Shown piece by piece: positions 7,642 to 42,010 of a DNA stretch of 64,000 nt. A model generated the notes under the pieces. The model was not told the origin of the DNA. It saw only the letters and a list, made by a program, of their open reading frames with translations, and made no database searches. This stretch comes from Haliclona indistincta. Taxonomy: Eukaryota; Porifera; Demospongiae; Haplosclerida; Chalinidae. Position 1 is the first letter of the stretch. Each line of letters opens with the position of its first letter. The stretch covers positions 1,196,305-1,260,304 of the forward strand of contig OZ024788.1 of assembly GCA_964017065.1 (NCBI GenBank), written 5' to 3'. A program made the position numbers and the translations under genes.

Positions 7642-7922
7642 ATCTTCTCCACTTCGCTATAAGATGCTACATGTATATCATCTTGAGTCACGCTTCTCTA
7701 CACTGATTGATGAGGGTCCTCTACTGTTCATCTGTAAAGTCAGGTGCTACATGTAGGCTCACGATCGCTTCTAGATCTTTTGGCGGCATGGCGGGTGAAC
7801 ATCACGTGATTATTATTTATTTTGCTGATAGGAAACCACAAGATCAACTCACAAGCCTCAGCTTAGGGCGGACCTAGTTTTCTAAGTGGAGAATAGTTGA
7901 GATTTAATTTTAGCGAGGCACA
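7642..7922 (+). promoter_or_regulatory. Divergent promoter region between CCP0 leader and ROCO1
   Basis: The 366 bases between the minus-strand ATG at 7556 and the ROCO1 ATG at 7923 have a close counterpart at 31774-32133 upstream of ROCO3. Both contain the palindrome ATCACGTGAT (7803-7812 here), an E-box of the kind bound by bHLH-Zip factors such as USF and TFE, and TGGCGGCATGGCGG just before it. No TATA box was seen. Confidence 0.45.
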
Positions 7923-10900
7923 ATGGCCGAAGGACGACGAGAAGAAAAATGCATAATCGCGTTTAAGAACGGAAACAAGCTTTTGGCGGAGCGGCTGCTA
8001 CCCAGCATACCACAACCAGCTACCATCACGACAACGTTCAAGTCCAGAATGTGTCTTACTGAGTTATCATTGGTCTCTCTGCTCCACCTAGCTGCGTACT
8101 GGGGCTGGAGGAATGTCGTCACTTCGCTAGTATCTGTGTATAATTGTGCCGCCAACTGCAAGGACGAGGACGGAAACATTCCACTGCATTATGCCGCCAG
8201 CAATGGACACCTCGAGGTGGTGAAATATATTATTATGGTTGAACTACATTGTGACCCTATGCCTATGGACAAGAACAATGCTGGCACTACACCACTTCAC
8301 TATGCTTGTTGCTATGGTCACCTCAACATTGCTCAGTATCTAATCAGAGAGGAACACTGTAACCCATCATGTGAGGACAAGTATGGCACTACACCACTTC
8401 ACGATGCTTGTGATAATGGTCATCTCAACATTGCTCAGTATCTCATCAGAGAGGAACACTGTAACCCATCATGTGAGGACAATGGTGGCATGACACCACT
8501 TCACTGGGCTTGTTACCGTGACCACCCCCACATTGTGCAATATCTGTTATCGACTGGTCGAGTCAATCCACTGACTAAGAGCAAGTCTGGTGACACTGCA
8601 TTGTCCCGTGCTGGTGGCAACTATGATATCATTAAACTATTTGAACCATTCGAAGAGTGCAGGACAGCCTTCCCAGTGCACACGTTCACTAAACTGATAC
8701 TCACAGGAGACAGTGGAGCTGGTAAGACTACCATAACTGAACTCATCGTCTGCCTAGCTAGTTCTACAGCTGTAGAGTGTGTCGCTGATGTTCAACGCTA
8801 CACAGCAGGGATCGTTCCACACCACATCCAGAGTGAGCAGCTGGGCAACTTTGTCGTGTATGACTTTGCAGGACAGCAAGAATACTACTCGAGTCATGAT
8901 GCCGTGCTCGAGCAAGTGATGCGAAGGTCAGCAGCCTTGTTTCTCTGTGTGGTAGACCTCAGTAAGAGCAAGGAGAAGATCTGTCAGTCGCTCCACTACT
9001 GGCTAAGCTTTATCGACAATGCCTGCAGCACAGCAGAGGGACGATCGCACGTGGTGATCATTGGTAGCCATGCCGACCAGGTCATGTCGGTGGAGGAGAA
9101 GAGCTCGCTGCTGCAGACCAACATAGCTACCAGAAGAGTAAGACGCCAGGAGTATGTGGAGTGCATTGCTATGGACTGTCGCAGAGCCAACACTGTCGCT
9201 TCACGTCGTTTGATCGCCACACTCACCAACAGCCAGAAAGCTATCACTGCCAGTCAGCCCGTCATCCACTACTATTCTCATGTCGTCTACGCGTTCCTTC
9301 GTACCAAGCTGAACGTGGTAGGCTGTACACTACACCATCTTGTCTCTGCAATCGCTAAGGAAAACGATTCTTCTCTCCCTAGCGACCAGTCTGTCCTCAC
9401 AGAGATCCTCACCACTCTCAGCGATAAAGGTCTCATCCTCTTTATACACCATCATCAATCCAGCTGGATCGTAGTGAAGACAGAAGCCTTGCTAAATGAG
9501 ATCAATGGAACACTGTTTGCTCCTGACCACTTCAAGGAGCATCGTGATCTTGCCAGCAACACTGGCATAGTACCCGTCTCTAACCTTCACAAAGTGTTTC
9601 CCGACTACAACTCAGAAATGCTCGTCGGATTTCTCACTTCGTTAGATTTCTGTCGACCAGTGGACCCATCAGTACTGCAGTATACCAACCTCCAGACCAC
9701 ACCCTCTCACTCCACAGCTGATCTCCTCTTCTTCCCTGGTTTGGTTCAGTCAGAGCGACCAGACAGCTTTGTCCAGCAGCTAGGAGCACTAGAGTTTGGC
9801 TGGTATCTGAGGTGTATGGATCCACACGAGTTCTTGAGCTCTCATTTTCTTCATCTTCTCCTACTTTCCGTTGCCTATGAGTTCTCTCTAGACAGTCGAT
9901 TTAACCCTCACTCTTCCGTCAGTGGTCTCCAGCGCAAGTGTACAATATGGAGGAATGGCATCTTCTGGAGGGACGACAACAACACTTGTACTGTGATAGA
10001 GCTCCTTGACAACAACCGATGTGTGATGGTGGCTATGTCGTACACCAGTACAGTAGAGTATGCCAAGCTCCGTGGTTCTCTTATAGCACTAATCCGTCGC
10101 CTCCTGCACAAGCATTCTCCAGCTCCAGAGGTGTGTGAGTTCCTCATCTCTCCCGATCTTGTCTGCCAGTACCCCATTGATACCTTCCCTGACACTGACC
10201 TGTTCGACATGTGTGACGTTGCTCGATCCATCCTACGACGCAAGCCAGTGGTCCTCAGCCATGGAGATGGGCGTGGTCACCTCAACATACAGTCACTTCC
10301 CTTTGAGCCTTACCACCTCCTTGCTCCCTCTTATGTCTCTCAAATGTTCAATCCTAACATGGCTGACCAGCCAGTTCCTGGTCCTCTCCTCCAGGAGGTA
10401 AAGCAGCTCTGTCATGACACTAAGATCAAGCCACAAGTGTACAAGGAACTGAGAGAGCATCTGGACAAGCTGAGTCTATTCGCTGGCAGTAATCCTCTGG
10501 TGAGCAGTGTGGCTGTACTGTAGCATGTGATGGTAGTAATGTTTCTCTGGTGTGTACAGGAGGTGGCTGGCTTGAAGGAGCAGGACCTACCAAGTGATCC
10601 ACCCACAGCTGCTGGTAGCTCCAGTACCCTCAGTGAGTCACACATGTACACAAGTTGTGACAGTGGTACTCCTCTATACAGGTATTGATGACCTGTTTGA
10701 AGTGGAGATATTCTTACAGAAAGTGAATAAGTGGCAACGCCTAGGTCTAGCCCTGGGACTGCTGTACCCTACACTAGAGAGAATAGATGAGAACCAGCGA
10801 GAAGATATTGAGAAATGCAGGACAAAGATGATAGTAGCTTGGCTACAGCAGCAGGATAATGTGTGTAAGAATGGTGTCCCTTCATGGGCCGTGCTGAGAA

Positions 10901-41700: not shown

Positions 41701-42010
41701 GTGAGTGAGTGGGTGAGTGAGTTGGTCTTGCTCACACTTGTACTGCCTTGGCTAGATTTCCGCTCTCAAATCGTGCCTCAAAGAACAGTGAAGTGCCAGT
41801 GTCTGCTCTGTGACGAGGCAGGAGAGGAGCAACGCTGGGTCCAATACGAGCCTGAGTGAACTACAGAGAGAGAGAGACAAATTAAAGGAGGTAATGAAGA
41901 GAGAGATATAGATGTCCAACTCACATATTTCTGTGTTCCCTGAGTGTTAGAGAAGACCACAGTTCCTCCTCCATCAGCACTACGTATCTTAGGAGACACA
42001 ACATACTGAC
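35718..42010 (-). CDS. CCP3: cytosolic carboxypeptidase (AGBL2/AGBL3-like), most complete copy, 23 exons
   Basis: Minus strand. Exons whose phases all agree, in gene order: 42010-41925, 41851-41736, 41589-41457, 41317-41196, 41074-40954, 40672-40535, 40360-40250, 40062-39893, 39842-39753, 39663-39552, 39495-39433, 39180-39055, 38944-38799, 38573-38498, 38424-38335, 38173-38084, 38034-37912, 37865-37830, 37775-37730, 37522-37280, 37137-36272, 36170-35897, 35842-35718. They total about 1167 codons. The CCP N-terminal domain is followed by the M14 metallopeptidase: HPGET zinc ligands, NPDG, RDLNR, DLHGHSR third ligand, and the catalytic Glu of SYTME. A KKKKK basic stretch and a long Gln/Ser/Pro-rich tail follow. 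Such enzymes trim glutamate from tubulin tails, often in cilia. The start exon is not found; a 28-base candidate (MMLLSTSEQ) lies at 42176-42149, antisense to the TRAF2 start. Confidence 0.85.
38575..38795. repeat. (GA)n followed by (GTGA)n, occupying most of one CCP3 intron
   Basis: This intron (between 38799 and 38573) is almost wholly microsatellite. On the minus strand it reads GTGAGACTCACTCACT from the donor, then (CT)n into the acceptor CAG. Confidence 0.95.
39182..39247. repeat. (GA)n acceptor tract in CCP3
   Basis: Minus-strand (TC)n directly abutting the CAG before the exon at 39180. Confidence 0.95.
39262..39425. repeat. 58-bp minisatellite in a CCP3 intron, three copies
   Basis: Shortest version of the array seen in CCP1 and CCP2. 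It has no inverted segment. Confidence 0.9.
40063..40166. repeat. (GA)n acceptor tract left of the HPGE exon
   Basis: Minus-strand (TC)n ending at the CAG before the exon 40062-39893. Together with 40366-40500 it brackets the exon lost in CCP2. Confidence 0.95.
40366..40500. repeat. (GA)n-(GGGA)n-(GA)n tract right of the HPGE exon
   Basis: Minus-strand pyrimidine tract ending at the CAG before exon 40360-40250. Same composition as the fused tract of CCP2. Confidence 0.95.
40695..40953. repeat. (CACT)n / (CACCCA)n array at the donor of a CCP3 intron
   Basis: On the minus strand the array begins with the donor GTGAGT at 40953 and continues as imperfect (GTGA)n with GTGG variants for about 250 bases. 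Confidence 0.95.
41085..41185. repeat. (GTGA)n array in a CCP3 intron
   Basis: Plus-strand GTGAGTGAGTGG-type repeats between the exons at 41074 and 41196. Confidence 0.9.
41340..41425. repeat. Short 20-bp tandem repeat in a CCP3 intron
   Basis: About four diverged copies of the repeat seen at 3492-3640, at the equivalent intron position. Confidence 0.7.
41620..41728. repeat. (GTGA)n array next to a CCP3 donor
   Basis: It lies between the exons 41736 and 41589. The CCP0 counterpart is at 3815-4018. Confidence 0.9.

Follow-up and report, generated by a model that had tools for sequence, protein, structure and literature searches.

Why should two unrelated genes be copied together in a sponge genome, and which of them is the element under selection? 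This question is raised by a stretch of 64,000 nucleotides of Haliclona indistincta (contig OZ024788.1, here C6, positions 1196305-1260304; the searched genome comprises 144 Mb in 46 contigs), which we call the window and in which position 1 is the first letter. The window holds three tandem units, each consisting of a plus-strand gene of the Roco family (ROCO1 to ROCO3), encoding ankyrin repeats (ANK), a Roc GTPase domain, a COR domain and a Death-type domain, and of a minus-strand gene for a cytosolic carboxypeptidase (CCP1 to CCP3). Our answer is that the Roco copies are the selected element. They belong to an ankyrin-Roco-Death family of at least 99 loci, which, with a rough probability of two in three, encodes intracellular recognition receptors, and CCP is a hitchhiker, an unrelated neighbour that is carried along mostly as fragments.

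A self-comparison of the window by BLAST gave three units with pieces 77-96% identical to one another and with ROCO and CCP tail to tail. A sequence-only reading of the same DNA had already described the array in this way, with ROCO1 and ROCO3 open and ROCO2 broken, and all of this holds. ROCO1 (7923-10935, plus strand) has a first exon for ANK-Roc-COR, from 7923 to about 10499, and a Death-type exon ending at about 10935; its open frame (7914-10523, 869 amino acids, aa) contains several ankyrin repeats and Roc according to Pfam. The open frame of ROCO3 (32122-35034, 970 aa), again with several ankyrin repeats and Roc by Pfam, begins with MADGR immediately before the ankyrins, and when the gene (32134-35475, plus strand) is spliced over two short introns (exons 32134-35010, 35076-35148 and 35198-35475) it yields a stop-free protein of 1075 aa, of which the last exon is the Death domain. 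ROCO2 (20007-24836, plus strand) is interrupted by two inserts: the ankyrin frame (piece 20198-20782) stops at 20782 and the Roc-bearing frame restarts at 22261, with Roc-COR still open (22261-24276) and followed by a Death domain of a different type (open reading frame, ORF, 24531-24836). The first insert (20761-21790, in the ANK part) has inverted arms (20761-21119 and 21430-21790) that are 97.8% identical, and since it contains an assembly gap of 200 N (21204-21403), the exact structure of ROCO2 is uncertain. The second insert (21791-22320) has short inverted ends, and both are missing from the copy ROCO0 upstream of the window.

The domain architecture proposed by the sequence-only reading is borne out for ankyrin and Roc by Pfam, for COR by fold and for Death by Pfam or similarity. 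Roc is matched by PF08477 (8.8e-11, 42.5 bits against a cut-off of 27) and by the Roc domain of LRRK2 in the PDB (5.6e-8), and the P-loop, DFAGQ and SHAD motifs are invariant or nearly so across 36 proteins. COR, which was not matched by Pfam at E-values up to 10, was identified after Roc from the predicted fold; the first full-length structure model had a predicted local distance difference test score (pLDDT) of 67.7, and its match list was filled by ankyrin-repeat proteins. No match to NACHT or NB-ARC was among those listed, and nSTAND3 reached 19.0 bits at the P-loop in protein P0001, against a cut-off of 27.2. The Death domain of ROCO2 (23.6 bits) lies above the Pfam cut-off of 22.6, and similarity revealed Death-type exons, of at least three types by eye, in 18 of 20 copies.

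Across the genome, 83 Roco loci were recognised by the Roc pattern of the family in frames longer than 500 aa (82 of them at least 650 aa), leaving aside every shorter frame and three matches on contig C2 with frames of 1477-1737 aa, and a DNA search added 16; the total of at least 99 comes from the 150 of 639 Roc candidates and the 40 of 358 candidates of the DNA search that were scored, and DNA similarity was verified for 40 of the 99 loci. The Roc-COR frame is open in 16 of 17 newly read copies, which were picked from listed matches and are therefore biased towards good ones; likewise, the 20 and 16 loci of the codon and Roc-COR sets were picked non-randomly from listed plus-strand matches. 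Roc-COR is under purifying selection, with a median ratio of non-synonymous to synonymous substitution rates (dN/dS) of 0.35 and a range of 0.21-0.58 over 252 pairs of 23 copies (dS >0.01; without L053 and without L027, which coincides with ROCO1). The proportion of non-synonymous differences (pN) is 0.161 in the highest stretch of 40 codons, and columns 620-637, which lie at or past the end of exon 1 and are present in some frames only, reach 1.0. Along the same 23-copy alignment the proportion of synonymous differences (pS) is 0.03 at the P-loop and increases to 0.33 in late COR, a gradient that may be due to gene conversion of the start of Roc.

The ankyrin repeats show a different kind of selection. 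Among the 538 repeats (34 residues each) of 117 homologous proteins there are 487 distinct sequences, with 3.7-10.7 effective residues at positions 3, 4, 6, 11, 14 and 15 (chosen after the protein sets had been viewed, some of the proteins being copies from the same genome) and 1.1-2.7 at positions 18-32; this set was collected with TPL-type anchors, which makes the anchor columns constant from the outset, and the contrast is the same. At the codon level, 83 middle repeats of 27 genes give pN 0.464 and pS 0.282 at the six positions, against pN 0.057 and pS 0.123 elsewhere and a pS of 0.14 over the whole repeat. In 60 bootstraps over genes the ratio at the six positions is 1.41-1.91 with the local pS and 2.0-5.3 relative to that of the whole repeat. 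A smaller set of 23 repeats of 7 genes gives pN 0.477 and pS 0.303, and the contrast between variable positions and scaffold recurs in the single last repeat, taken from 22 genes; an early set of 35 repeats, in which middle repeats were still mixed with the other kinds, had a six-position ratio of 1.18. Five of the six positions are equivalent to positions that are randomised in designed ankyrin repeat proteins (DARPins), which we take to be 2, 3, 5, 13, 14 and 33; these five have a pN of 0.494, and none of 20,000 random position sets matches it. In an AlphaFold2 (AF2) model, positions 3, 4 and 6 stand before the inner helix (residues 159-165 in the repeat that begins at 152), 11 and 14 belong to this helix and 15 follows it directly. 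Diversifying selection at six positions of the binding face, within a nearly invariant scaffold, is supported by these data, and from their place in the model the variable positions are probably the ligand-facing residues. A link of the repeats to phages was rejected: of 18 records returned by tblastn 13 are from Wolbachia, and the three that are listed, ankyrin proteins or hypothetical ones, share only the repeats.

From the observed architecture, copy number, codon selection and hitchhiking of CCP we infer ligand binding, a switch, a Death output and an immune or non-self role of the Roco family. The concave face of the ankyrins would bind varied ligands, the Roc-COR GTPase would act as a conformational or dimerisation switch, and the C-terminal Death domain, with its several types, would recruit a cell-death or NF-kB-type output. 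In a birth-and-death process, recombination and duplication (tandem as well as segmental) would create copies, ankyrin repeats would be gained and lost and the scaffold kept uniform, while the ligand-facing residues would diversify under selection. Microbes, symbionts or kin might be what is recognised.

Several points weigh against this interpretation. The Death matches of two of the three window copies are below the Pfam cut-off (ROCO3 just below it, with 21.5 bits and E 2.6e-4; ROCO1, Death-like, with 14.2 bits and E 0.05), and in two of the 20 copies no Death-type exon was seen. The frame before the P-loop has just 112 and 133 aa in two of 27 copies (L037 and L039), L053 stops early with a frame of 340 aa, and the first 45 residues of Roc have a pN/pS of 0.63. 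As to the ankyrins, the outer-helix anchors of the codon sets impose apparent conservation on some scaffold columns, the selection test consists of pairwise counts and a gene bootstrap and is not a tree-based site test, and pS is raised at the variable positions too, so that coalescence depth or local mutation may contribute. Since the ankyrin repeats of many proteins vary at these places, it is not the positions alone that are special, but the codon ratio.

The array continues upstream of the window. The "three-fold" of the sequence-only reading is correct within the window and is an effect of its borders: a further unit with ROCO0 (uninterrupted frame, 914 aa) and CCP0 lies just upstream, where the block from -16600 to -7521 in window coordinates corresponds to 11704-20757 at 98.55% identity and the block from -7504 to -5000 to 22321-24825 at 99.88%, the 5,000 bases directly preceding the window being N. 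Further Roco copies on C6 were placed by DNA search at 1154468 and 1171539, and C6:1.15-1.23 Mb holds six Roco loci. Among nearby copies dS is 0.06-0.11, and 0.002 between ROCO0 and ROCO2. Three listed proteins are 100% identical to proteins of this locus, P0034 to ROCO0, P0032 to ROCO1 (over 866 aa) and P0244 to a TRAF-like gene of the window. Each is listed with a longest contig of 28,288 bases (the source, ena, is given for P0034 only), and they are therefore also present in a second assembly, besides the one that was searched; the equal sizes suggest one shared contig, which would support the linkage without proving it. That the whole array is due to chance or a one-off assembly artefact was rejected on the additional C6 copies and on the identical proteins in the other assembly. 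A part of it may still be an uncollapsed haplotype, if unit 0 and the CCP1-ROCO2 unit represent a pair of alleles that the assembly put one after the other, as the adjacent blocks with 98.6% and 99.9% identity and the 200-N gap in ROCO2 could indicate. We regard this as possible but rather unlikely, as six Roco loci in C6:1.15-1.23 Mb together with dozens elsewhere exceed two haplotypes and the ROCO0, TRAF and ROCO1 proteins occur on equal-sized contigs; the local copy count would change by it, the family-level result would not.

The same young copies could also have arisen by neutral amplification at a segmental duplication hot spot, where Roco copies survive by recency only. The low dS values fit this explanation, as do the tandem repeats and inserts and the location of 82 of the 99 loci less than 2.3 Mb from a contig end. 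It is nevertheless improbable, because dN/dS of Roc-COR is 0.21-0.58 over all 252 pairs, pN/pS exceeds 1 at the variable positions and is well below 1 in the scaffold, and the majority of frames are open.

The minus-strand gene is cytosolic carboxypeptidase 2 (CCP2/AGBL2): the core of CCP3 passes PF00246 (M14 catalytic domain, 3.1e-19; an M14 exon also came up in a separate scan) and PF18027 (CCP N-domain, 3.6e-8), and of the 120 listed relatives most have an identity of 53-60% and one of 44%, the named ones being animal proteins and many of them CCP2 or CCP3, in agreement with the earlier assignment as AGBL2/3-like. CCP3 had been called complete and the two other window copies damaged, and so they are. 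CCP3 (36161-42010, minus strand) has 13 core exons (41851-38461) for a core of 520 aa, with AG/GT borders and matching phases at all 13, and it alone among the copies read keeps all of them; the ORF 37186-36164 is probably its C-terminal tail, and the 5' end is provisional. The second window copy (25360-30969, minus strand) has exons f and h-n, with a frameshift in h, as well as a fragment of exon b (30969-30891), and exons c-e and g were not found in it. CCP1 (11677-19340, minus strand) retains later exons, with a length change of 7 bases in exon n compared to CCP3; neither in CCP1 nor in the upstream CCP0 did we find exons b-d or the 5' half of e. The copy L012 (C6:1143780) keeps exons b-m, of which k is split. 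CCP thus breaks mostly via loss of 5' exons, and it is most likely cut at the edges of duplications. The CCP leaders that were said to face ROCO starts head to head in two of three cases, here ROCO1 and ROCO3, turned out to be fragments of exons b and c only. Those upstream of ROCO1 (3653-7641, minus strand) comprise exon c (3796-3653) and three times exon b (4124-4025, 5332-5233 and 6540-6441), one in each copy of a perfect 3 x 1208-bp tandem repeat (4018-7641), which is either very recent or an assembly effect.

Exon-bearing CCP DNA is listed at 16 places, each less than 11 kb from a Roco gene; 16 is a lower bound, since 40 of 1958 CCP candidates were scored and the 237 matches are incompletely listed. 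Matches limited to the minisatellite at query 2045-2226, a handful of small matches falling within places already counted, and two matches on C7 (query 3495-3754) far from counted Rocos were left out of this proximity count; the C7 stretch, when read, held intron repeats and neither a CCP exon nor a Roco. A stretch of 167 bp of a minisatellite in the CCP intron (39259-39425) recurs 91-99% alike on C1, C4, C5, C6, C7 and C9.

Selection for Roco copy number had been proposed by the sequence-only reading, with low dN/dS expected only in ROCO. This expectation is contradicted: on the retained exons, dN/dS of CCP3 is 0.05-0.08 against L012, CCP0 and CCP1, 0.15 against the second window copy and 0.18 against the fragment L021 on C1, and L012 gives 0.09 against CCP0 and CCP1, compared to the median of 0.35 in Roc-COR. 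Between more damaged CCP copies the values are 0.26-0.37, and with the short fragment L013, at few sites, 0.67-1.36. According to these low values, the CCP copies spent much of their past under constraint, which was somewhat relaxed in the worst ones, and as the values are not higher than in Roc-COR, the dN/dS test proposed for selection on Roco copy number fails. What remains of the proposal is that the Roco copies are selected, which is supported by at least 99 loci versus one complete CCP found, by mostly open Roc-COR frames with dN/dS well below 1 and by the diversifying ankyrins. What is selected is most likely the diversity of recognition surfaces, which fits this pattern better than selection for dosage with CCP as a decaying bystander. 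Dosage could account for the disparity between Rocos and the one complete CCP found and for exon-bearing CCP DNA being only near Rocos among the places listed. However, it does not predict diversifying selection on the ligand face, and, except in comparisons with L013, CCP dN/dS does not exceed that of Roco, which renders dosage decidedly improbable. A functional partnership of ROCO and CCP (e.g., in cilia or the cytoskeleton), with both duplicated for a shared role, is barely credible and was rejected despite the convergent arrangement repeated in the array, as CCP DNA is listed within 10 kb of only 14 of the 99 Roco loci and, apart from CCP3, the few copies read are either broken or cut short.

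The array is flanked by a TRAF-like gene with zf-TRAF and MATH (318-1697, plus strand) and, on its other side, by a duplicate (42118-43885), in which a RING was seen. The window TRAF gene has 291 related proteins, of which 120 are listed (P0244-P0363), and TRAF-like genes are perhaps another expanded family. Possibly these duplicated neighbours are signalling partners of Roco, and equal-sized contigs in both lists (28288, 101668, 99949 and 57135) are a hint of wider linkage. Beside each TRAF copy lies one of two stretches that are 92% alike (2388-3158 and 44034-44815), and near the second copy there is a patatin-like ORF (45129-45710). Two tandem protein kinase ORFs follow on the minus strand (48782-54205), with DNA about 80% alike over 1.2 kb and internal repeats at 53068-54124. 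Inverted and palindromic repeats of 0.3-0.5 kb at 55891-57832 are possibly the remnant of a mobile element, and 62682-64000 consists of satellite-like direct repeats, where an ORF and its Pfam matches are probably artefacts. The GC content per 2-kb bin of the window is 38-49%, nearly all bins being below 49.3%.

No title or abstract describing this Roco family was found in the literature searched, the scope of which did not extend to preprints and most subscription journals. To our knowledge, the receptor-level explanation of non-self recognition in early-branching animals is poor. We lean, slightly, towards the more specific view that the family is a germline, natural DARPin-like repertoire of about 100 or more ANK-Roc-COR-Death receptors, an animal counterpart of fungal non-self recognition by NOD-like receptors (NLRs) that is built on a Roco GTPase switch and possibly serves symbiont or pathogen sensing or fusion compatibility. 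If this is true, animals, like fungi and brown algae, independently made a recognition repertoire from a repeat-plus-switch protein, and Roco proteins, the family of LRRK2 and DAPK1, would have a new physiological role.

DAPK1 has ankyrin repeats, which are likewise present here. Unlike in DAPK1, no kinase domain was found before Roc-COR (in the 1.7 kb upstream of ROCO3 no kinase-like ORF of at least 40 aa was seen by eye, a distant or small exon being possible), the copy number is very high and the repeats diversify. Roco group 3 with DAPK1 is like the sponge family in having Roc-COR without leucine-rich repeats (LRRs) and a C-terminal death domain (PMC6337361). The LRR-ROCO proteins of brown algae, which are candidate immune receptors, are also Roco genes with diversifying repeat units, with one LRR per exon, exon shuffling and alternative splicing (PMC11378527), whereas in the sponge the ANK repeats lie inside one long exon and a Death domain is present. 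Lineage-specific expansions of Death/TRADD-N proteins in marine animals, including 357 Amphimedon proteins, some with ankyrins, likewise combine Death-type domains and ankyrins (PMC8195603), the family described here differing by its Roc-COR core. With fungal NLRs the sponge proteins share, by architecture, a repeat recognition domain, a switch and an effector and, as in those NLRs that have highly conserved ANK, TPR or WD repeats, uniform repeats that vary in number; in Podospora five ANK positions, similar to the diversifying ones of the sponge, are positively selected, and all but one are on the concave face formed by inner helices and hairpins, the fungal switch being a NOD of the NACHT type with other effectors, in contrast to Roc-COR GTPase and Death in an animal (PMC4986451). 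DARPin libraries, finally, have the same constant ANK scaffold with six variable positions per repeat and bind with their concave face (PMC6590788, PMC8229355), and there the variation is engineered, whereas in the sponge it is natural.

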